DNA of 43,256 nt, from positions 1 through 43,256 of the forward strand of contig JAGBIC010000020.1 in the NCBI GenBank assembly GCA_017935185.1, given 5' to 3'. Below the pieces are notes generated by a model. The model was not told the DNA's origin and did not search any database. It worked only from the letters and a program-made list of their open reading frames with translations. This DNA is from Alistipes sp. GTDB lineage: Bacteria; Bacteroidota; Bacteroidia; Bacteroidales; Rikenellaceae. Below are positions 17,186 to 28,905 of this stretch, one piece after another. How positions within the stretch are numbered: the stretch's first letter is position 1; each line of letters opens with the position of its first letter. The translations under genes and the position numbers were made by a program.

Positions 17186-18745
17186 TTACTTGAATGAGTC
17201 GGGCAGGTCGTTCTCGTAGAGCACCACATCGCCCGCGCGCAACACCCCTGCCAGATAGGCCGAGGCCTCGGCAAATGAGTCGGTCTGAAGAATATTATCT
17301 TCACTGAAAGAGTTATCGCACAGACCCTGCACTATCGCTTGTCGATTTATGCGATTTACAACAACAACCAAATCGGCCGCTTGAGCTATATTCTGCCCCA
17401 ACTCCCTATTGTTACGGAACTGGCTATCGCCCATCTCGACAAATCCGGGCGTTACTACAATACGTTGCGCACCCTCCGCCAAAGCAAAATTGCGCAACAC
17501 CTCCAAAGCCATCTTTGCGCCCGACGGATTAGAGTTGTATGCATCGTCAATCACGGTCACACCGCCCGCGCTACGCCTCACGCTCAAACGATGCTCCACC
17601 TGCTCTATTTGGCGAATAGCTCGTCTCTGAGCCGCCTCGCTCACACCCAAAGTATCCGCCACAGCTATGGCCGCCAACAGATTCAATATATTACCGCTAC
17701 CCACCAAATGGGTTGTATATCCATCACGAACACCCTCGGGCGTCACCACCGAAAATGATGTTTGACTGGGCGTGTAGTCGATATTTTCAGCTCGATACGC
17801 CGCACGGCTATTATTTATGGCATAATCAATCAACTTGCAATCAAATGCCTTATCGGCGGCAGCCACAGGCTCTGAATCAAGGTTTATTATGCCTACGCCA
17901 CCTTTTGGAAGCGCATCTATCAGCTCAAATTTCGTCTTACAAACACTCTCCAACGAGCCGAATGTCTCGAGATGCATCTCGCCTACGGCGGTTACTACAC
18001 CCATCGAGGGTTGCACCAAATCGCATATCTCCTTTATATCGCCAACCTGCTTGGCACCCATCTCAACGATAAATACCTGATGATGCGGCTTGAGATGCTC
18101 ACGCACGGTACGCACAACGCCGAGTGTGGTATTGAAATTACCCGGAGTCATCAGCACATTGTATTTTTCAGAGAGGATACGATATAGATAGTGTTTTGTA
18201 GAGGTCTTGCCGAAACTACCCGTAACGCCGATGATTTTCAGGTCGGGCATCGAGCGCAAAATACGCTTGGCATCGTTGTAGTACCAACGCGAAATAGCCG
18301 CCTCCAAAGGTTTGTTCACGACATTGGCAACAAGCATGATAACGGGCAGAATCAACAAAGCCAAAGCCGCAACAGGGGCATACTTCGGAATGAAATACAC
18401 CGCTGCCCCGATGGCCAACAACGACAATAAAGCCGAGGTGGCAATCAGTCGCCACACACGCATGGTATAAACCAATGGCTTACGATACTCCGCGCGAAAC
18501 TCACGCCACGCCATAACCGCCATAAAGACTGCCGAGAAACCCCAAAACACAGGATTTGACAACACTCCTACGACCACCAAAGCTGCAATCAGCCCCGTAC
18601 GCAAAAATTTATGCCCCGAGCGATACCAACGGGCATAACGTGCCACGCGGTATGAGTTGTGCTGGAACATATGTATATCGTAGCGCACCACAGCACACCA
18701 CAATGCAACATAGAGAGGCCAAAATATAATATTCTCAATCAACAT
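17186..18745 (-). CDS. Membrane-anchored MurF-like Mur ligase
   Basis: The C-terminal two thirds match MurF-type ligases, which add D-Ala-D-Ala to the UDP-MurNAc-tripeptide. Seen are the P-loop GVTGSFGKTSTK (residues 173-184), the GNFNTTLGVV and VEMGAKQVGDI segments, the EHRLSVR and DDAYNSNPSGAKMAL motifs, and GFVEMGDSQFRNNRELG. Canonical MurF has a soluble uridine-binding domain first. Here residues 1-170 instead form about four to five membrane helices (near 4-20, 51-80, 100-118 and 122-143). The 519-residue chain ends in LYENDLPDSFK. It starts 3 bp after the hydrolase stop and precedes ddl. It could be a second MurF or a relative acting on a lipid-linked or modified precursor. Confidence 0.85.
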   Translation of the reverse strand: MLIENIIFWPLYVALWCAVVRYDIHMFQHNSYRVARYARWYRSGHKFLRTGLIAALVVVGVLSNPVFWGFSAVFMAVMAWREFRAEYRKPLVYTMRVWRLIATSALLSLLAIGAAVYFIPKYAPVAALALLILPVIMLVANVVNKPLEAAISRWYYNDAKRILRSMPDLKIIGVTGSFGKTSTKHYLYRILSEKYNVLMTPGNFNTTLGVVRTVREHLKPHHQVFIVEMGAKQVGDIKEICDLVQPSMGVVTAVGEMHLETFGSLESVCKTKFELIDALPKGGVGIINLDSEPVAAADKAFDCKLIDYAINNSRAAYRAENIDYTPSQTSFSVVTPEGVRDGYTTHLVGSGNILNLLAAIAVADTLGVSEAAQRRAIRQIEQVEHRLSVRRSAGGVTVIDDAYNSNPSGAKMALEVLRNFALAEGAQRIVVTPGFVEMGDSQFRNNRELGQNIAQAADLVVVVNRINRQAIVQGLCDNSFSEDNILQTDSFAEASAYLAGVLRAGDVVLYENDLPDSFK

Positions 18746-18748
18746 ACT

Positions 18749-19522
18749 CTACTTTTTCATCTCTTTACCCAAAAAGCTCTCCACCACACGCTGAAAAAGC
18801 GGCGTATTCTCCAAAAATGAGAAGTGCCCTGCACCTGCCACCGTAACCAGCCCCGCATCGGGAATCAGTTGCTCCATCTTTTTTGCATCGGCAAGAGGTG
18901 TGGCGGTGTCATTCTCGCCCCAGAAGAGCAGGGTCGGAGCCTTTATCAACGGCATTAAATGGCATAAATCCTCGTTCACACACTTCGACAATATGGCACG
19001 CATCATCGGCGTGGCATTGTTATAATCCGACGAGCCAGCCTTTGCTCGGCGACGCTCGATTATGGCAGCAGCTCGCTCTTTTCCCAACACAAGACGGGTA
19101 AGGCTCTTCATCAACTTGAAGCTATACACCTTGCGATAGTAGCTTAGTGACCGCTTTGGCTTCACACCCGCCGCATCGACCAAAATAACCTTGCAAGTTT
19201 TGTTGCGCGAGGCATACACAATCGACACCCTACCGCCAAATGAGTGTCCCACAAGCACAGGATGCTCAATTCCTTCATGCTCAGCCAACGCCTCAATCGA
19301 ACGGGTATACTCCTCGACACCCCACACTGCGTGGGGCTCTTCGCTCTTACCGAAACCGGCAAAATCGACAGTAATCACCCTCATCCGCTCCTCCAAAAAG
19401 GGTCGAATGGTGGAAAACGTCGCGGTATTGCAACCCCAACCATGAAGCAACAAAAGCGGATGCCCCTCACCGCAATCGGTGTAGTGCAGTTTTACGCCAT
19501 TGTATGTGAAAAATTTATCCAT
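18749..19522 (-). CDS. Alpha/beta-fold hydrolase
   Basis: This soluble 257-residue hydrolase has the oxyanion-hole motif LLLHGWGC, the nucleophile elbow GHSFGG (Ser94), Asp205 in GENDTAT and His233 in GAGHFSF, so the triad is complete. A helical lid lies at about residues 125-170. No signal peptide is visible. It is the first gene in front of the MurF-like ligase (3-bp gap) and ddl. The context suggests an ester or amide substrate linked to cell-wall precursors, but the sequence alone does not give the substrate. Confidence 0.9.
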   Translation of the reverse strand: MDKFFTYNGVKLHYTDCGEGHPLLLLHGWGCNTATFSTIRPFLEERMRVITVDFAGFGKSEEPHAVWGVEEYTRSIEALAEHEGIEHPVLVGHSFGGRVSIVYASRNKTCKVILVDAAGVKPKRSLSYYRKVYSFKLMKSLTRLVLGKERAAAIIERRRAKAGSSDYNNATPMMRAILSKCVNEDLCHLMPLIKAPTLLFWGENDTATPLADAKKMEQLIPDAGLVTVAGAGHFSFLENTPLFQRVVESFLGKEMKK

Positions 19523-19643: not shown

Positions 19644-20744
19644 TTATTGATGATTCATAATTTCATTCTGGCGACTGATACTCTCCATATGAATTGCCTC
19701 GAGAATTGTGCGGACAAAATCTTCACTCAAGCCCATGCCGCGAGTCATCGTAAGCATGCGGCGGCAGATATCCTCCCAACGATTACTCTGAAGGATTGCC
19801 ACATTGTTGGCCTTCTTGATTCGACCAATCTTATCGGCAGTCTTCATGCGCTGGCTCAACAAATCAAACAACTCGGAATCGATTTGGTCAATCTGCTGAC
19901 GGCATACATTCAGCTCGTCGGTAAATTCGGGATCGTTGGCGGTTTTGGCACGCCACATCACATTTTCAATCAAGGTAAGGCAATCCTGCGGTGTTACCTG
20001 CTGCGATGCATCACTCCACGCCTTATCGGGGCTGCAGTGGCTCTCGATCATCAGACCATCAAAACACAAGTCGGCCGCCTGCTGCGAAATACCATAGAGC
20101 AAAGGACGGCAACCGCAGATGTGTGACGGGTCACAAATCATCATCATCTCGGGGAAACGACTGCGCATATCGAAAATCATGTGCCACATGGGCGGATTAC
20201 GATACTGACTATGACCGAAATATGAAAAACCACGATGAATAAGGCCTATATTCTGTTGCGGAACTCCCTCGTTAATAAGACGATACACAGCTCCTGCCCA
20301 CAGCCCGATGTCGGGGGTCATAGGATTCTTGATAAGCACTGTAACATCTTTATTGTCATGCAACGTCTCGGCAATCTCCTGCACAGCAAAAGGCGAAACG
20401 GTGGTGCGCGCTCCAATCCACAGAATATCAACACCGTGCTTCAAGGCACACTCCACATGAGAGCGATTTGCCACCTCTACCGCTAGCGGTAGTCCCGTAG
20501 CAGCCTTCACCTCGTTAAGCCATGCCAACGCCGGCTCGCCAATACCCTCGAAAGTCCCGGGATTGGTGCGAGGTTTCCACACTCCTGCACGAATAACATC
20601 CACCTTACCCGAGCGCGCCAACTGCATGGTGGAATCTATGGTTTGCTCGCGTGTTTCAGCACTACACGGGCCCGCGATTATAAGGGGTCGCTTTGCCCCT
20701 AAAACAAATTTTCCCATATACCTAAACTTTGAGTCTTGCCACAT
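19644..20744 (-). CDS. Bifunctional DAHP synthase / chorismate mutase
   Basis: This fusion catalyses the first step of the shikimate pathway and the conversion of chorismate to prephenate. Residues of about 10-265 are a type I-beta (KDO8P-like) DAHP synthase with IIAGPCSAETREQ, RAGVWKPRTNPGTFEG, LWIGARTT, VLIKNPM, LIHRGFS and CDPSHICG. Residues of about 275-366 are an AroQ-type chorismate mutase (RQQIDQIDSELFDLLSQRM, KIGRIKK). A second ATG at 20717, giving MGKFVLGAKRPL, is an alternative start. It is the last gene of the attenuated operon, so it feeds the genes before it. The fusion is typical of Bacteroidetes. Confidence 0.96.
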   Translation of the reverse strand: MWQDSKFRYMGKFVLGAKRPLIIAGPCSAETREQTIDSTMQLARSGKVDVIRAGVWKPRTNPGTFEGIGEPALAWLNEVKAATGLPLAVEVANRSHVECALKHGVDILWIGARTTVSPFAVQEIAETLHDNKDVTVLIKNPMTPDIGLWAGAVYRLINEGVPQQNIGLIHRGFSYFGHSQYRNPPMWHMIFDMRSRFPEMMMICDPSHICGCRPLLYGISQQAADLCFDGLMIESHCSPDKAWSDASQQVTPQDCLTLIENVMWRAKTANDPEFTDELNVCRQQIDQIDSELFDLLSQRMKTADKIGRIKKANNVAILQSNRWEDICRRMLTMTRGMGLSEDFVRTILEAIHMESISRQNEIMNHQ

Positions 20745-20765: not shown

Positions 20766-21608
20766 CTATTTCAGAATTTCCCTAATCTTATTGGCTCTCT
20801 GCATTGCCTCGATAAGTCCATCACGGTCGTCACGTTCAATCATGCGGCGCAAAATCTGCAACTGATGGATATGCTCCCGCAATACATCAAGCACATTATA
20901 CTTATTACCCAAAAATATCGGAGCCCATGTCTGCGGCAAACTCTTGGCAAGACGCACAGTACTCTCGAAACCTCCACCAGCAAGGTCGAAAATATGCTCC
21001 TCCTCACGCTCCTTCTCCAACACAGTCAAAGCCAAAGCAAACGATGTGATATGAGAGATATGCGACACATAAGCACAGTGAGTATCCTGCTCCTCGGCCG
21101 ACATATAACGGATGGGCATACCCAACACAGAGTATATCTTCTCAACCTGCTCCAATGCATCGGCATCCGAGAGCTCCTTGTCACAAATAACCACCGAGCG
21201 ACCTCGGAACGCATCATGCACAGCCGCATCGGGACCGCTATTCTCGGTACCCCACATAGGATGGGTTGCAACAAGACGGCCGCGGTTGGGGTGCATCATT
21301 GTGACCTCACACAGTTCCTGCTTGGTTGAGCCCATATCCATCAATATCTGATTGGGAGATATGCGATTCAGAATTTTGGTAGCCATAACAGGCAAGGTAT
21401 CTACGGGTGTTGCAAGAACTATCAAATCGCTCTCAGCCAACGCCTCGTCAATATCCACAATTTTGTCGACCAAACCCAATTCAAGGGCCCGTCGAGCACT
21501 CTTCTCCGAGTGCTCGACACCCATAATGCAATCTGACAAGCCATTATCCTTAAGGCTCAATGCAAACGAGCCTCCGATAAGTCCCAATCCTATGATGGTT
21601 GTCTTCAT
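20766..21608 (-). CDS. tyrA: Prephenate dehydrogenase
   Basis: TyrA oxidatively decarboxylates prephenate to 4-hydroxyphenylpyruvate, the tyrosine branch. The N-terminal NAD site is IIGLGLIGGSFALSL. DLIVLATPVDTLP, ILMDMGSTKQEL and THPMWGTENSGPDAA (with the catalytic-type histidines) follow. The helical dimerisation domain includes HCAYVSHISHITSFAL. The product is 280 residues with no ACT domain, so feedback control by tyrosine is not evident in the protein. It is the third gene of the operon, with 12 bp to the aminotransferase before it. Confidence 0.95.
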   Translation of the reverse strand: MKTTIIGLGLIGGSFALSLKDNGLSDCIMGVEHSEKSARRALELGLVDKIVDIDEALAESDLIVLATPVDTLPVMATKILNRISPNQILMDMGSTKQELCEVTMMHPNRGRLVATHPMWGTENSGPDAAVHDAFRGRSVVICDKELSDADALEQVEKIYSVLGMPIRYMSAEEQDTHCAYVSHISHITSFALALTVLEKEREEEHIFDLAGGGFESTVRLAKSLPQTWAPIFLGNKYNVLDVLREHIHQLQILRRMIERDDRDGLIEAMQRANKIREILK

Positions 21609-21620
21609 TCAGTATAATTC

Positions 21621-22799
21621 TTACTTAACAAAACGACTCTTCACACGCTCGGCAGCCTCGGCCAGACGTGAGGCAGGCATACAGAGCGAGATGCGGATAT
21701 ATTTTGTACCCTCCGAACCGAATATTCCACCGGGGGTCACAAATACATCACACTCATTGAGGACCTTATCAGAGAAGGCAAAGCAATCACCATCGAAATC
21801 CTCAGGCATAGCGGCCCAAACAAACAGGCCTGCCTGACCCTTAACATAGTTACATCCAAGTGCATCGAGCAAGGCATAACCATGGGCCTCACGCTCGTAA
21901 TAGGTGGCGTTCAACTCGTCAAACCACTCATTACCCAGAGCCAAAGCCTCGGCAGCAGCAGCCTGCACGGGATAGAACATACCTGAATCCATATTGCTCT
22001 TGAAGCGCAAAATATCGCTGATAATATCGGCACGACCAGCCACAACACCGACACGCCAGCCGGCCATGCTGTGACCCTTACTTGTTGAGTTCATCTCGAT
22101 AGCAACATCCTTTGCGCCTGCAATAGAGAGAATGCTCAACTGAAGATTATTACGCACAAAGCTATATGGATTATCGTGCACAAGCAGAATATTGTGCTTA
22201 CCTGCAAATGCCACCAACTTCTCGAACAGCTCCACTGTGGGGTGGGTTCCTGTGGGCATATTGGGATAATTCACAAACATAAGCTTCACCTTGCTCAAGT
22301 CCTCTTTCTCTATCTCCTCAAAATCGGGATAGAAGCCATTTGCAGCATTCAGGCGGTACTCAACAACCTCACCACCGGCCAAAGTTACAGCTGCGCGGTA
22401 GGTGGGGTAACCCGGGTTGGGAACCAACACTTTATCTCCGGCATCGAGGAACGCCATGCAGATATGCATAATACCCTCCTTCGATCCCAACAGAGGCAAC
22501 ACTTCGCTCTTGGGGTCGAGAGTTACATTGTACCACTTCTGATACCAATCTGCATAGGCCTTACGCAACAATTCGCTACCATTGTAGGGCTGATATGCAT
22601 GCACATCGGGGCGCTTGGCCTCCTCACCCAAACGGTCGATAACCTTTTGTGCGGGCGGCATATCGGGACTACCTATACCAAGACTGATAATATCACGGCC
22701 TGCCTTACGCAACTCCGCAATTTCACGATTCTTCTTTGAAAAGTAATACTCCTTAATGCTATCCATACGATGAGAAGGAGCAATCTCTACCTTTGCCAT
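21621..22799 (-). CDS. Class I/II aminotransferase of the aromatic amino acid operon
   Basis: This PLP enzyme of 392 residues is expected to transaminate phenylpyruvate, 4-hydroxyphenylpyruvate or prephenate. Visible are IISLGIGSPDMPP, YQPYNGSELLRKA, NPGYPTY, FVNYPNMPTG, the PLP-binding DNPYSF and the Schiff-base lysine in NSTSKGHSMAGWRVG. I chose ATG 22799 (MAKVEIAPSHRM); an in-frame ATG at 22838 would add 13 residues. It sits between pheA and tyrA, which is the reason for the aromatic assignment. Aspartate or LL-DAP aminotransferases share these motifs. Confidence 0.92.
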   Translation of the reverse strand: MAKVEIAPSHRMDSIKEYYFSKKNREIAELRKAGRDIISLGIGSPDMPPAQKVIDRLGEEAKRPDVHAYQPYNGSELLRKAYADWYQKWYNVTLDPKSEVLPLLGSKEGIMHICMAFLDAGDKVLVPNPGYPTYRAAVTLAGGEVVEYRLNAANGFYPDFEEIEKEDLSKVKLMFVNYPNMPTGTHPTVELFEKLVAFAGKHNILLVHDNPYSFVRNNLQLSILSIAGAKDVAIEMNSTSKGHSMAGWRVGVVAGRADIISDILRFKSNMDSGMFYPVQAAAAEALALGNEWFDELNATYYEREAHGYALLDALGCNYVKGQAGLFVWAAMPEDFDGDCFAFSDKVLNECDVFVTPGGIFGSEGTKYIRISLCMPASRLAEAAERVKSRFVK

Positions 22800-22843
22800 A
22801 ATTCTTGCTTTAATGTTAATATTTTTTATCTGTATCATTCAAA

Positions 22844-23653
22844 TTATTTCCCACTACGATACACGCCATACACATGTATCTCTTTTGTTGCCTCCTGCAA
22901 ATTATTAAGGTTGCGAATGTAATCGTCAAGGCACTTAAACTCCAAATCAATATGGAACAGATAGTGCCACGGCTCACTCGGAATGGGATACGACTGCAAC
23001 TTCGACAGATTTATATCCTCCAATCGGCTCAAAGCCTTCAAAAGCGAACCCTCGCAATGATCGGTCTTAAAATAGAGTGACGCCTTGTTGGCATCCGGCT
23101 CGATATCGTGATCATAACGCTTAAGCACCATAAAACGGGTATAGTTACTCTTTATGGTATTTATCTCGGGAGCGATAATCTTAAGACCATACATCTCGGC
23201 AGCCAGCTCACTGGCGATTGCTGCCGTGTGGCGCAACCCCTGCTCGGCAATATGGCGGGCACTGGCAGCGGTATCTTCGCTCTCGATGAGTTTCCAATTA
23301 TGCTCATCAAGGTAATCCACACACTGCAAAAGAGCCATAGAATGTGATTCCACCTCCTCGATATCCTCCAACTCGACATCAGGCAAGACCATCAGATTCT
23401 GCTTAATAGGCAAATATACCTCACCTGCCACCTGCAAATTTTCATCCTGCAAAATACTGTAATTCGGGATAATAGAACCCGCAATAGAGTTCTCGATAGC
23501 CATCAGCCCCATATCAGCCCGACCCTGCTTTACCGCCGTAGCCACAGCTCGAAACGTATCACATGGAACAATCTCAATATCCTTTCCAAAATATTGTATC
23601 GCAGCAATATGGTGGAAACATCCCTCGTAACCCTGTATCGCTATTTTTTGCAT
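22844..23653 (-). CDS. pheA: Prephenate dehydratase
   Basis: PheA turns prephenate into phenylpyruvate. The two-lobed catalytic domain shows IAIQGYEGCFHHIAA, MGLMAIENSIAGSI, VESHSMALLQC, DTAASARHIAEQG and the catalytic NYTRFMVL. A C-terminal ACT domain begins near residue 200 (SLYFKTDHCEGSLLKALSRL). The usual phenylalanine-binding ESRP is QSYP here (KLQSYPIPSEPW), so feedback binding may differ. ATG 23653 is chosen; the in-frame start at 23689 lies inside the terminator hairpin. It is the first gene after the attenuator. Confidence 0.95.
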   Translation of the reverse strand: MQKIAIQGYEGCFHHIAAIQYFGKDIEIVPCDTFRAVATAVKQGRADMGLMAIENSIAGSIIPNYSILQDENLQVAGEVYLPIKQNLMVLPDVELEDIEEVESHSMALLQCVDYLDEHNWKLIESEDTAASARHIAEQGLRHTAAIASELAAEMYGLKIIAPEINTIKSNYTRFMVLKRYDHDIEPDANKASLYFKTDHCEGSLLKALSRLEDINLSKLQSYPIPSEPWHYLFHIDLEFKCLDDYIRNLNNLQEATKEIHVYGVYRSGK

Positions 23654-23668
23654 CTCTTTATGCTTTAT

Positions 23669-23703
23669 AAAAAATCCTGACCATGCCATGCACAGTCAGG
23701 ATT
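23669..23703 (-). terminator. Attenuator terminator before pheA
   Basis: On the minus strand AATCCTGACTGTGC (from 23703) pairs with the complementary arm ending GGTCAGGATT (23673), about 14 bp including two G-U pairs around an ATG loop. TTTTTT follows (23674-23669). It lies between the leader peptide and the pheA start, so it must be read through for the operon to be expressed. Confidence 0.85.
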
Positions 23704-23755
23704 GATGTAACTTATTCATGAAAAAAATCTTCATTTTAGCACACGACATCCTGAC
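23695..23755 (-). promoter_or_regulatory. Antiterminator competing with the pheA attenuator
   Basis: GTCAGGAT at 23755-23748 is identical to the 3' arm of the terminator and can pair with the same ATCCTGAC (23702-23695). Three wobble or GC pairs extend it. ACCG/CGGT within and after the Tyr codons can form a small 1:2 hairpin that would block it. This is the classical arrangement of mutually exclusive structures. Confidence 0.75.
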
Positions 23756-23807
23756 CGCTCAAACGGTAATAGTAAAATCGCTTATAAAAGAAGAAATTTG
23801 TGTTCAT
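23736..23807 (-). CDS. Phe/Tyr-rich leader peptide of the pheA operon
   Basis: This is a 23-residue ORF from ATG 23807 to TAA 23736. Residues 4-15 read NFFFYKRFYYYR, which is four Phe and four Tyr among twelve. It starts about 15 nt after the expected transcription start and ends 33 nt before the terminator hairpin. It is followed by the genes for both Phe and Tyr synthesis. The role inferred is to stall ribosomes when charged tRNA-Phe or tRNA-Tyr is scarce and so favour the antiterminator. Confidence 0.85.
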   Translation of the reverse strand: MNTNFFFYKRFYYYRLSGQDVVC

Positions 23808-23828: not shown

Positions 23829-23859
23829 CAAATATATTTTAAAAAGAGCATATATCAAA
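23829..23859 (-). promoter_or_regulatory. Promoter of the Phe/Tyr operon
   Basis: On the minus strand TTTG (23859-23856), a 19-nt spacer and TATATTTG (23836-23829) match the Bacteroidetes consensus exactly. Transcription should begin near 23823. Confidence 0.75.
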
Positions 23860-23887: not shown

Positions 23888-25129
23888 TTAATTATGGCCG
23901 CGTTTTGCCCACTCCATAACTCGTGCCGGCGCCTGCTTAAGCTGCAACATCTTTCGCATATAATCCATATAGGGTGCAGCATGGTCGAAAAAACGATAAT
24001 AACCTTTGCAAAGATAGTTCAGTCGCGGCTCGCCATCGGCCGTAGCGGCAAAACGGTTGCGCGGGCACTCTCCGTGACATGCAAATTCATATTCACAATC
24101 GAGGCACTGACGAGGCAGGGTTGTGTATTTAGCCGCCCCGAAACGACTCTGCTGTCGGCCATACATCATGGCTGACAACGATTTTTCGCACAAATTTCCC
24201 AAACGATATTCAGGAAAAACAAAGTGGTCACACGAATATACATCGCCATTATGCTCAACAACTGCCGCATGTCCACAATATTTCGACATTGTGCATACCC
24301 CCGGAGGATGTCCGACCCAATTGGCCAATGTGGAATCAAAAAGTTGAACAAACATTTTTCCCACATCATTGCACACCCACTCATCGAATATTGTGCATAA
24401 AAATTCGCCCCACTCCTCTGCTTTTACCGACTGAGGAGTAACTACCCCCGTCTGCTCACCGATGTGAGCAAGCAGAGTGCCATTAGCATGAAGGGCAGTA
24501 CGCTCCACTATAGGTGCAAATTGCAGGAACTTACACTCCAAATCATCTCTAAAAAAACGGTAAAACTCCATCGGATGACCAACATTCACCGAATTTACTG
24601 TGGCCATAGCATTCCACTCTACCCCATGCTTGGCAAGCAATCGAAGTCCCCGCATCACACTCCTGAAACACCCCTCGCCCTTTGTCGTGCGACGTAATGC
24701 GTCGTGAAGATGTTCCGGGCCATCTATCGAGATTCCTACCAAAAAATTGTTTGCCCGCAGAAATTCACACCACTCGTCGGTGAGCAGTGTTCCGTTGGTT
24801 TGAATTGAATTTGCGATTTTACGTTTACCCGCATAACGTTTTTGAAGTTCCAACACCCTCTCATAAAAGGATATCGGACGCAACAACGGCTCACCACCAT
24901 GCCAGACAAACAACACATCCAGCGTGGTCTGCGATTGGATATACTCACGGATGAACAACTCCAGCATTTCGTCGCTCATCAGTTGCGATGAAGAGTTGTG
25001 CAGTTTACTCTTTTCCAGATAGTAACAATACTCGCAAGAGAGGTTGCATGCCGAGCCTGTCGGCTTGGCCATAACATACATCACTTGCCCGAAAGGCATA
25101 TTGATGCTCTTCTCTTCTTCCGAGTGCAT
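23888..25129 (-). CDS. Anaerobic sulfatase-maturating radical SAM enzyme (anSME type)
   Basis: The family oxidises a Cys or Ser in sulfatases to formylglycine. Residues 22-40 hold KPTGSACNLSCEYCYYLEK with the radical SAM CxxxCxxC (Cys28, 32, 35). WHGGEP and ISIDGPEHLHD follow. The C-terminal SPASM-like part has GVCTMSKYCGHAAVVEHNGD, CDHFVFPEYRLGN, CLDCEYEFACHGECPRNRF and LNYLCKGYYRFF, enough cysteines for two auxiliary clusters. At 413 residues it is full length. No sulfatase lies in this window, so the client is elsewhere. A nine-base poly-C tract lies just upstream of the ATG. Confidence 0.92.
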   Translation of the reverse strand: MHSEEEKSINMPFGQVMYVMAKPTGSACNLSCEYCYYLEKSKLHNSSSQLMSDEMLELFIREYIQSQTTLDVLFVWHGGEPLLRPISFYERVLELQKRYAGKRKIANSIQTNGTLLTDEWCEFLRANNFLVGISIDGPEHLHDALRRTTKGEGCFRSVMRGLRLLAKHGVEWNAMATVNSVNVGHPMEFYRFFRDDLECKFLQFAPIVERTALHANGTLLAHIGEQTGVVTPQSVKAEEWGEFLCTIFDEWVCNDVGKMFVQLFDSTLANWVGHPPGVCTMSKYCGHAAVVEHNGDVYSCDHFVFPEYRLGNLCEKSLSAMMYGRQQSRFGAAKYTTLPRQCLDCEYEFACHGECPRNRFAATADGEPRLNYLCKGYYRFFDHAAPYMDYMRKMLQLKQAPARVMEWAKRGHN

Positions 25130-26508: not shown

Positions 26509-26528
26509 AACTATCAATAATGATAGTT
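26509..26528. promoter_or_regulatory. Palindromic operator candidate between regulator and TonB receptor
   Basis: AACTATCA (26509-26516) and TGATAGTT (26521-26528) form perfect 8-bp arms around ATAA. The right arm overlaps the TTG -33 element of the receptor promoter. Confidence 0.55.
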
Positions 26529-26557
26529 GTTATATCTTCATATTAGCCATACCTTTG
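26527..26557 (+). promoter_or_regulatory. Promoter of the TonB-dependent receptor gene
   Basis: TTG (26527-26529), a 20-nt spacer and TACCTTTG (26550-26557) match the consensus. It excludes the in-frame start at 26527 and fits ATG 26596 with a leader of about 33 nt. Confidence 0.6.
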
Positions 26558-26595
26558 CCGACGCATTTACAAACCATGCTTTAACCCCAATTACG

Positions 26596-28905
26596 ATGAA
26601 GTTGAAATTTATACCTCTCTTAGTATCTCTATTTTTCTGTTCACAAGCTTTTGCCCAATCACAGCAGGACACTCTCTATGCCCATGAGCTGTCAATCGAA
26701 GAGCTCGATGTTAAGATAAAAGCCCCGAAACAACATTTCGGCCTTAAGCAACAGCCCATATCATCAAGCGTGGCGGGCATGTCGTTGCTAGCACAGGAGC
26801 GCGTACATTCGGTAAAAAATTTATCGGTACTTATGCCCAACTTCTACCAGCCCGACTACGGTTCAAAGATGACATCTTCGATTTATGTCAGAGGTTTTGG
26901 CGCACGCATCGACCAGCCCATCATCGGAATGAGTGTTGATGGAGTTCCATACCTTAATAAGAACAACTATGATTTCGATATGCTCGACGTTGCCCGAATA
27001 GAGTTGCTGCGTGGCCCGCAAGGCACTTTGTATGGCCGCAACACCATGGGTGGACAGATGAACATCTACACACTCTCACCCATGAATTATCAAGGCACAA
27101 GAGGTTCGTTGGAATATGGTTCGGGGAATACTTTTCGTGCCAAAGCCTCATATTATGGCCGTAGCGACAGCGGTAAGTTAGGCTTCTCCGTAGGCGGATT
27201 CTATAACCGTACAGACGGATTCTTCGAAAACGATTTCGATGGCAGCAACGTAGATTGGGCCGAGAGCAGCGGTGGCCGCCTGCGCCTTATAGGCGATTTG
27301 GGGCGTGGCTGGGAAATCGACAACAACGCCATGTTCGGATACAACTATGAGGGAGGATATGCCTATTCGCTATATGACGCCGAGAAAGATGTTGTAAACA
27401 ATGTAAACTACAACGACCCCAGCCGCTATATGCGTTACAGCTTCAGCGATGGTCTTACCCTCTCGCATGAAGGCGAAAAATATCTCTTCACCTCTACCAC
27501 AAGCTATCAATTCATGCACGACCGCATGCGCATGGATAACGACCTCACCCCTGCATCAATCTTCACCCTTGAGCAGGAGCAGCACGAGCACGCCTTTACC
27601 GAGGATATTATTCTGCGCACCAACGACAACTCACGCCGCTGGCAGTGGATTACAGGAGCTTACGGATTCTACAAGAACATCGACATGAGCGCGCCTGTGA
27701 ACATCCTGAAAGATGGCATCAACAACCTCATTCTAGGCAATATGCCCGCTGCAATAAAGAATCTGTTGCAATTCGACCGCGAGTCGTTGGAGGTTGCCAG
27801 CAATTTTGAGCTGCCGACCTACGGTTTTGCCATATATCACGAATCCACACTGCGAGCCGGCGAGCGCTGGAACTTCACCGCAGGTCTGCGACTCGACTAC
27901 GAGGCTGCGAAGATGCGTTACAACAATCTCTCGGAGATTGGTTACAAGATGGGGGCTATGCGCCCGGGTATGCCCGATATGATTCCCAACTTCCGCACCG
28001 TGAGTGTGCCATTCACAGGGGAGGAGAAACTCGACTACATCGAGTTACTTCCAAAATTTGCAGTAAACTTCACCACCGGAGCCGGCGACATCTATGCAAC
28101 AGCCACACGAGGTTACAAAGCGGGAGGTTTTAATACTCAGATTTTCTCTGATATTCTTCAGAACAAAATGAAGTCGGCGCTCATGAACGATGCCATGTCG
28201 GCAATGGGTCGCCCTGCAACCTCGCCCGAGGAGTCGCCATATGATGCCGCTTCGGTAACAACATACGACCCCGAATACAGTTGGAACTACGAGATTGGTG
28301 CCCACCTGAACTTTGCCGACAATCGACTTTTGATGGATGTCGCAGCCTTTTGGATTGAGTGCAATGACCAGCAGCTTACAGTATTCCCCGAGGGTCTTAC
28401 CACGGGCCGCATGATGTCTAATGCCGGAAAATCTCGCAGCCGAGGCGCAGAGCTATCGCTTGAGTGGCGTCGCCGCCTCCCGATGCGCGGGCTGTCACTC
28501 ACAGCCAACTACGGCTTTACAAATGCCAAATTTGTTGATTTCAGCGATGGCGTAAACGACTATGCAGGCAACCATCTGCCCTACGCGCCGGCCCATACTG
28601 TATCGTTGGGCGCCTCTTACCGATTCTTTGTGGGCGGAGGATTCCTCCACTATATCGACCTGAATGCATCATGGCAGGGTGCCGGCGAGATTTATTGGAA
28701 CGAGGCCAACACACTCAAGCAGGATTTCTACTCACAACTCAACGCCTCGGTAGCCTTGAAGTGCCAGCACTTCACTCTTGAACTTTGGGGCCGCAACCTG
28801 ACCGACACCGACTTCTACACATTCTATTTCAAGTCGATGAACAACAACTTCTACAACCACGGCAAACCATGCCGCATTGGAGCAACATTGAGTTTCGATT
28901 TTTAA
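26596..28905 (+). CDS. TonB-dependent outer-membrane receptor
   Basis: This is an active transporter of the outer membrane, 769 residues long. The signal peptide is KFIPLLVSLFFCSQAFAQ. A short N-terminal segment (HELSIEELDVKIK) may be the TonB box region; there is no SusC-type carboxypeptidase-like domain. The plug (about residues 50-160) has SVKNLSVLMPNFYQPDYG, IYVRGFGARIDQP, DGVPYL and ELLRGPQGTLYGRNTMGG. The remaining 600 residues form the beta-barrel, ending in GATLSFDF. No SusD partner follows, so it is more like a siderophore, cobalamin or haem receptor than a glycan importer. Its regulator is probably the divergent LuxR gene. Confidence 0.95.
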   Translation: MKLKFIPLLVSLFFCSQAFAQSQQDTLYAHELSIEELDVKIKAPKQHFGLKQQPISSSVAGMSLLAQERVHSVKNLSVLMPNFYQPDYGSKMTSSIYVRGFGARIDQPIIGMSVDGVPYLNKNNYDFDMLDVARIELLRGPQGTLYGRNTMGGQMNIYTLSPMNYQGTRGSLEYGSGNTFRAKASYYGRSDSGKLGFSVGGFYNRTDGFFENDFDGSNVDWAESSGGRLRLIGDLGRGWEIDNNAMFGYNYEGGYAYSLYDAEKDVVNNVNYNDPSRYMRYSFSDGLTLSHEGEKYLFTSTTSYQFMHDRMRMDNDLTPASIFTLEQEQHEHAFTEDIILRTNDNSRRWQWITGAYGFYKNIDMSAPVNILKDGINNLILGNMPAAIKNLLQFDRESLEVASNFELPTYGFAIYHESTLRAGERWNFTAGLRLDYEAAKMRYNNLSEIGYKMGAMRPGMPDMIPNFRTVSVPFTGEEKLDYIELLPKFAVNFTTGAGDIYATATRGYKAGGFNTQIFSDILQNKMKSALMNDAMSAMGRPATSPEESPYDAASVTTYDPEYSWNYEIGAHLNFADNRLLMDVAAFWIECNDQQLTVFPEGLTTGRMMSNAGKSRSRGAELSLEWRRRLPMRGLSLTANYGFTNAKFVDFSDGVNDYAGNHLPYAPAHTVSLGASYRFFVGGGFLHYIDLNASWQGAGEIYWNEANTLKQDFYSQLNASVALKCQHFTLELWGRNLTDTDFYTFYFKSMNNNFYNHGKPCRIGATLSFDF

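Follow-up and report, generated by a model that had tools for sequence, protein, structure and literature searches.

In the window, by which we mean the whole stretch of 43,256 nucleotides analysed here, the minus strand carries a promoter, a short leader ORF and a hairpin, followed in this order by pheA, an aminotransferase gene, tyrA and a DAHP synthase/chorismate mutase gene. The locus raises the question of what a hairpin with a run of T does between a promoter and a biosynthetic operon, and what a short ORF rich in Phe and Tyr codons contributes to it.

The pheA operon and its leader in the window

The first gene, pheA (prephenate dehydratase, 22844..23653; PF00800, E 5e-59), is followed by genes for a class I/II aminotransferase (21621..22838; PF00155, E 6e-63), the prephenate dehydrogenase TyrA (20766..21608; PF02153 and PF20463, with NF006307 above its cut-off) and a DAHP synthase-chorismate mutase fusion (19644..20744; PF00793 and PF01817). 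All four lie on the minus strand, and the Pfam matches confirm the four-gene pheA operon that a sequence-only reading of this DNA had named. Translation of pheA likely starts at ATG 23653, 15 nt past the T run. Mechanical calling places the earliest start at 23689, an in-frame ATG inside the terminator loop; automatic annotation may therefore hide the terminator by setting the start too far upstream. Downstream of the operon, on the same strand, an alpha/beta hydrolase gene and a Mur-ligase-like gene occupy 17186-19522. The closest named relatives of the PheA protein belong to Alistipes and other MAGs of the Rikenellaceae, a family within the order Bacteroidales (identity up to 91%), and a search for PheA relatives on viral contigs returned two pattern matches, neither of them a relative. 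The genome carrying the window measures 1.8 Mb and is an estimated 75% complete.

Ahead of the operon, all on the minus strand, the motif TTTG-N19-TATATTTG (23829..23859) follows the Bacteroidetes -33/-7 pattern, and from the consensus we take it to be a promoter of that type. A leader ORF of 23 codons, MNTNFFFYKRFYYYRLSGQDVVC, extends from ATG 23807 to TAA 23736 (23736..23807) and is conserved in relatives. Eight Phe/Tyr residues fall within its codons 5-14; as judged from the sequence and from the composition of 137 leaders, the control codons are codons 5-8 (Phe Phe Phe Tyr, 23784..23795) and 11-14 (Phe Tyr Tyr Tyr, 23766..23777). The hairpin AATCCTGACTGTGC-ATG-GCATGGTCAGGATT forms 14 bp between 23703 and 23673, and with the six-T run ending at 23669 it constitutes an intrinsic terminator (23669..23703), as indicated by folding, a scan and the relatives. 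The sequence GTCAGGAT is present twice, in the leader at 23755-23748 and in the terminator 3′ arm, and its leader copy is able to pair with the terminator 5′ arm as an alternative. We refer to the 5′ side of the antiterminator, GCGGTCAGGAT (23748..23758), as strand A (classical strand 2); it overlaps codons Ser17-Asp20. Strand B (strand 3, 23690..23703) is common to terminator and antiterminator. The earlier description of promoter, 23-codon ORF, 14-bp hairpin with six T and terminator-arm copy proved exact, coordinates included.

The antiterminator side alone (23758-23690) folds at -25.0 kcal/mol (z -4.7), most of the terminator (23704-23675) at -17.6 kcal/mol (z -5.7), and in both cases none of 200 shuffles is equal; likewise, none of 200 shuffles reaches the A:B pairing of the window. 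A simple promoter scan is weaker, with four sigma-70-like sites against 2.6 in shuffles. Scanning the entire window for a short ORF with a residue run, then a strong hairpin and a T run, gave two matches, namely the pheA leader and 28837-28905 on the plus strand, which is the in-frame end of a long ORF (26527-28905).

The leader is conserved before pheA

The DNA ahead of pheA, to a length of at most 450 nt, was taken from relatives, found by a PheA protein search (55 of 101 genomes matched) and by PF00800 over the order (126 of 295 genomes matched). As a leader we counted a short ATG ORF with at least 6 Phe/Tyr in 12 codons, and genomes needed at least 300 nt upstream; those with less, and genome G107, were dropped (G labels denote genomes, L labels loci). 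A leader precedes pheA in 137 of 151 such genomes, compared with 8 of 151 on the reverse complement and 217 of 7550 Markov resamples (2.9%), and 131 of the 137 contain at least two Phe plus at least two Tyr. The leader before pheA is not there by chance. For the order sample drawn by PF00800 only, it was detected in 105 of the 119 judgeable genomes out of 126; five of the seven left unjudged were cut off (G181, G066, G339, G107 and G214) and two were without sequence (G295 and G330). Among 35 named Rikenellaceae loci, 31 carry a leader and one is cut off; the three without it, out of 34 with enough sequence, are the Rikenella-type loci L061, L062 and L064. Fourteen of the 151 genomes, including G236, G132 and G328, have no leader at the threshold. 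Nine of these fourteen also have no tyrA within 6 kb downstream.

The promoter recurs as well. The 95 nt ahead of the leader ATG contain the pattern TTTG-N18-21-TAnnTTTG at 84 of 163 leaders (0.25 expected from shuffles) and the -7 box alone at 139 of 163 (10.7 expected), after 7 of 170 leaders with less than 95 nt upstream had been dropped. The totals of 163 and 170 contain duplicates, as some of L032-L066 are contigs of G genomes, and the counts by genome are free of them.

Terminator and antiterminator are mutually exclusive across the order

A terminator follows 132 of 139 leaders (median -16 kcal/mol). A:B pairing was scored between the stretch past the last Phe/Tyr codon and the terminator 5′ arm; at most 10 of 200 shuffles were as good in 117 of the 132, and at most 2 of 200 in 91. 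The conserved leader codons and competing stems for which the sequence-only reading had proposed to search in relatives are thus both present. The E. coli his leader, hisL, does not pass this test (rank 93 of 200), which means that the test misses some true attenuators and is unsuited to his; for the His leaders of the order it yielded 11 of 23 with a terminator.

The median distance from the last Phe/Tyr codon to the start of strand A is 11 nt (middle half 8-12), and the distance in the window is 6 nt; measured with the identical script, it is 7 nt in E. coli pheL and 13 nt in trpL. Compared with the ribosome footprint, and on geometric grounds only, this is about where a ribosome stalled with the last Phe/Tyr codon in its A site ends.

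In a swap test on 124 leaders, left after removal of 8 of the 132 whose hairpin lies more than 70 nt from the stop, the leader's own A region was in the best 10% of all leaders for its own terminator arm in 81 (about 12 expected) and in the best 5% in 58, a result that supports co-evolution of A and B. The two strands shift together between clades: GGTCAGGAT stands with ATCCTGACC in the window, GGAGCGG with CCGTTCC in G006 and AGGTGAGG with CCTCACC in G315. In an alignment of 26 sequences of the clade, 93.8% of the cells of the 8-bp A:B helix are paired. One of the eight pairs is altered on both sides, as many as in 126 of 500 shuffles, and the covariation score is matched by 2 of 500 shuffles; within-clade covariation is limited because strand A is nearly invariant and rows L056 and L057 are misaligned at B.

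In all 111 leaders of the folding set, the minimum-energy structure of the RNA that still lacks strand C pairs A with B, a figure that arises partly by selection, as these leaders were chosen for an A:B rank of at most 10. When C is included in a ribosome-free fold, 82 of the 111 form at least four terminator pairs and 30 form at least four antiterminator pairs, one leader belonging to both groups, and the window's own minimum-energy fold with C retains the terminator. Since the ribosome-free fold with C mostly keeps the terminator, kinetics must determine which helix forms, as they do in classical attenuation.

A candidate protector hairpin (1:2) spans strand A in the window (23743..23781, minus strand) but is weak, folding there no better than shuffles (z 0.54). 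Over the order, 47 of 111 leaders rank at or under 5 of 100 in the protector folding test, in which the E. coli controls are insignificant (pheL rank 31, trpL rank 21 of 100); this weakly suggests a protector helix that masks A across the order. An initial conclusion that there is no protector helix, drawn from a strand-1 duplex test, was dropped, as that test missed E. coli pheL and trpL too.

Leader codons follow the content of the operon

tyrA lies within 6 kb downstream of pheA on the same strand in 98 of the 126 order-sample genomes. Leaders linked to tyrA have at least two Tyr codons in 89 of 90 cases, and none has zero. By contrast, at most one Tyr is present in all 7 leaders of solitary pheA genes, which come from four families and have no window-like aminotransferase, tyrA or DAHP synthase within the 5-7 kb read; examples are MTRFFTHFFFFFTQQ and the FFFFFAFFF run of G088. 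The difference between linked and solitary leaders is significant on genomes (Fisher p 6e-10), although the genomes are related and amount to about four independent cases, and the comparison was made post hoc, after Phe-only leaders had been noticed. Two assignments were made by hand: G272, with a tyrA domain about 6.1 kb away, was counted as linked, and G344, with a sub-threshold leader score of 5, was added to the solitary set.

Sixteen leader genomes have no tyrA within 6 kb, and downstream DNA was read for 11 of them. Left out were G342, G118, G299, G338, G320 and, owing to a short stretch, G229, and all six of these leaders have Tyr codons. G168 and G202, whose pheA genes are not preceded by a leader, stand outside the Tyr counts. 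In G060, examined for its Phe-only leader, pheA is accompanied by DAHP synthase and the leader is without Tyr. G200, G209 and G101 are counter-cases that keep Tyr codons, with DAHP synthase present and tyrA elsewhere.

Where tyrA is separated, a short Phe/Tyr ORF with 3 to 6 Tyr per ten codons was found upstream at 8 of 9 loci among the PF02153 matches listed, for example MNNTFGYYAFYYYFFYNN and MIKNISVFAYFYYYFYFSKK, both identified as ORFs only. The distant tyrA of G101 has no Phe/Tyr ORF upstream. Leaders of separated tyrA genes lie at L440-L447, and in G159 (L444) two Phe/Tyr ORFs are about 130 nt apart. Such tracking of the operon by the codons is to be expected of a codon-specific Phe-or-Tyr sensor and speaks against chance, base composition and a peptide of fixed sequence. 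The figures of 7 of 7 against 89 of 90 likewise lend support to the earlier suggestion of a Phe-or-Tyr sensor matched to a Phe and Tyr operon, which they make probable at the level of sequence.

Proposed mechanism and alternatives

On these grounds, we propose that the element is very probably a ribosome-mediated transcription attenuator of the leader-peptide type with Phe-or-Tyr logic. The locus combines an ORF with control codons, a terminator, a mutually exclusive antiterminator, a spacing that can leave strand A free and codons that match the product, and from this conserved anatomy we infer leader translation, stalling, termination and read-through. If charged tRNA-Phe and tRNA-Tyr are ample, the ribosome behind RNA polymerase would translate all 23 codons and cover strand A as strand B emerges, so that B pairs with C; B:C is the terminator, and transcription would end near 23669. 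If either Phe or Tyr is short, the ribosome would halt in the Phe/Tyr run, and A, just past the ribosome edge, would be free to pair with B, whereby the terminator would be blocked and all four genes of the operon transcribed. The scheme would require coupling of transcription and translation in Bacteroidales, which we likewise presume.

TnaC is a case of sequence-specific nascent-peptide arrest, and in a similar manner the leader peptide might be arrested by free Phe, Tyr or another metabolite instead of responding to uncharged tRNA. Conservation of the aromatic residues as a class is indeed strong, and they form a long run, but no specific peptide is maintained: with Trp included, the longest aromatic runs of the 139 leaders take 88 different forms, Phe and Tyr change places freely, and Tyr is almost missing where pheA is solitary. 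An arrest raised by the product would presumably also work in the wrong direction for a biosynthetic operon in such a layout. We consider this explanation very unlikely, and assign the same low probability to a second one, according to which leader translation acts by translational coupling, mRNA stability or Rho and the hairpin is secondary. Short leaders near genes have been proposed as reinitiation aids, to judge from the accessible portion of that report (PMC4833913); T-run terminators and the exclusivity of A, B and C, however, are conserved in our leaders and would be needless in such models.

Even less probable is that the hairpin is merely the 3′ terminator of the radical-SAM/SPASM gene located upstream and the Phe/Tyr ORF a chance frame in AT-rich sequence. 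This gene is on the same strand and its end, at 23888, is separated from the hairpin by about 185 nt, AT-rich sequence favours Phe/Tyr codons, and in a plain, weaker terminator scan the window does not stand out from shuffles (one terminator-like site against 0.6). Yet a promoter is located between the gene and the hairpin, the leader score is reached in only the small share of Markov resamples given above, and 29 regions upstream of pheS, taken as a control, never exceed 4 Phe in 9 codons, with a mean Phe score of 1.6 compared with 2.3 on the reverse complement. A chance frame is refuted by the association with pheA, ahead of which the leader recurs in most of the genomes examined together with its A strand and terminator, and by the match of A, B and C. 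Finally, a riboswitch or T-box that senses Phe, Tyr or tRNA directly would suit the 5′ leader location with a terminator, but is the least probable of all, as none of 4227 Rfam families, a set which we understand to include the E. coli-type Phe leader and the T-box, matches at gathering score across the whole window, and the span of about 160 nt from promoter to T run is mostly filled by the ORF and the A, B and C strands.

Probable tandem attenuators

Leader-peptide attenuation may also be stacked. Two Phe/Tyr leaders are present in 12 of the 18 genomes whose leader sits at least 170 nt from pheA (G341, G255, G257, G338, G148, G250, G332, G166, G227, G226, G266 and G120, from seven families); as only leaders at this distance were examined, the count is a lower bound. 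Each unit is followed by a terminator, and 23 of the 24 units have an A:B rank no higher than 10 of 200. The first unit is preceded by a -7 box in 10 of 12 cases, the second in 0 of 12. These features suggest that a single promoter serves two complete attenuators of distinct sequence, one after the other. T-boxes and riboswitches occur in tandem; to our knowledge, tandem leader-peptide attenuators have not been reported. If the tandem gate is real, it should multiply termination and sharpen the response, and the tandem copies would be a natural test of why cells stack two attenuators.

Leaders in other taxa and before other operons

Elsewhere in the class, outside the order, a leader was detected in 15 of the 26 best-scoring loci, compared with 2 on the reverse complement; all 15 are followed by a terminator, and 14 have an A:B rank of at most 10 of 200. 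Among 28 loci from other classes of the phylum, the best 28 of a larger list, no leader was detected.

Leaders for other amino acids occur within the order. A leader with at least 3 His in 12 codons precedes hisG in 26 of 30 loci (L254-L283; reverse complement 2), one with at least 2 Trp precedes trpE in 23 of 26 (L284-L309; reverse complement 1), and one with at least 7 Ile/Leu/Val in 9 codons precedes ilvD in 20 of 28 (L317-L344; reverse complement 2). The genome of the window itself contains a His leader, MIIAINIHHHHHILRKIR, before hisG (L273), after which the terminator caller finds no terminator, and an Ile/Leu/Val leader, MYSGLFIIINLILVVLRR, with a strong terminator before ilvD (L336). 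For thrA, 20 upstream stretches, which may miss leaders, gave a mean Thr/Ile score of 3.4 compared with 3.7 on the reverse complement. Thr/Ile-rich short ORFs precede a fused aspartokinase-homoserine dehydrogenase at L409 and L425 and are insignificant overall.

Taken together, we lean towards a Bacteroidales-wide layer of attenuation that senses amino acids (Phe/Tyr, His, Trp and Ile/Leu/Val), whose codon sensors are modular and are divided anew as operons break up, and which in several families includes tandem gates. If so, the first ribosome would trail RNA polymerase by no more than a few tens of nucleotides. Bacteroidales start translation without classical Shine-Dalgarno pairing.

Comparison with known systems

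Comparative predictions of leader peptides in Actinobacteria and bacilli likewise pair leader codons with a terminator and, in the text available from these studies, differ in concerning Trp, Leu, ilv, Cys or His (PMC1262725, PMC2965389). According to the accessible text of the latter, its own case from bacilli was in 2010 the first to be known beyond Proteobacteria and Actinobacteria, ermC-type leaders aside (PMC2965389). Closer to the window, the available text of a study on Flavobacterium psychrophilum reports 'strong clues' that leader peptides attenuate amino-acid operons, as well as a 5′ element of pheA that is conserved in Flavobacteriaceae and has no Rfam match (PMC9723704). These elements belong to the same phylum but to another order, and the main text names neither a peptide nor mixed Phe/Tyr sensing (PMC9723704). 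Short ORFs resembling leader peptides are described, in the portion available, for 5′ UTRs of B. thetaiotaomicron (PMC7366714), whereas attenuation, phenylalanine and prephenate are absent from the accessible text of a survey of structured RNAs from human microbiomes (PMC8040213). No mixed Phe/Tyr leader is described in the literature searched by title and the start of the abstract, a body of text that most subscription journals lie outside, but the Flavobacterium clues and a pheA 5′ element were already in print (PMC9723704, as available).

Attenuation is textbook knowledge in E. coli, and its spread through a major gut order, with mixed Phe-or-Tyr sensing that adapts to rearranged operons, is little documented in the literature searched. 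The element would provide a ready assay for transcription-translation coupling in Bacteroidota and predicts how gut commensals set Phe and Tyr synthesis.

The nearest counterpart in E. coli is pheL (NC_000913), which shares the short Phe-rich leader, the intrinsic terminator and the control of a prephenate dehydratase; it responds to Phe only, whereas the leader of the window is mixed Phe/Tyr, and the phyla differ. Moreover, pheA and tyrA-aroF are on opposite strands in E. coli, whereas the window has pheA, tyrA and the DAHP synthase gene together behind a single leader. Mixed specificity, which the sequence-only reading had called unusual, is not so in principle: E. coli thrL and ilvL are mixed leaders that each sense several amino acids made by their own operon. 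They resemble the window's leader in reading more than one amino acid and differ from it in the amino acids and operons concerned. The mechanism is of a known kind; what makes this variant deserve experiments is its mixed specificity tracking operon architecture, its wide use in the order and its tandem form.
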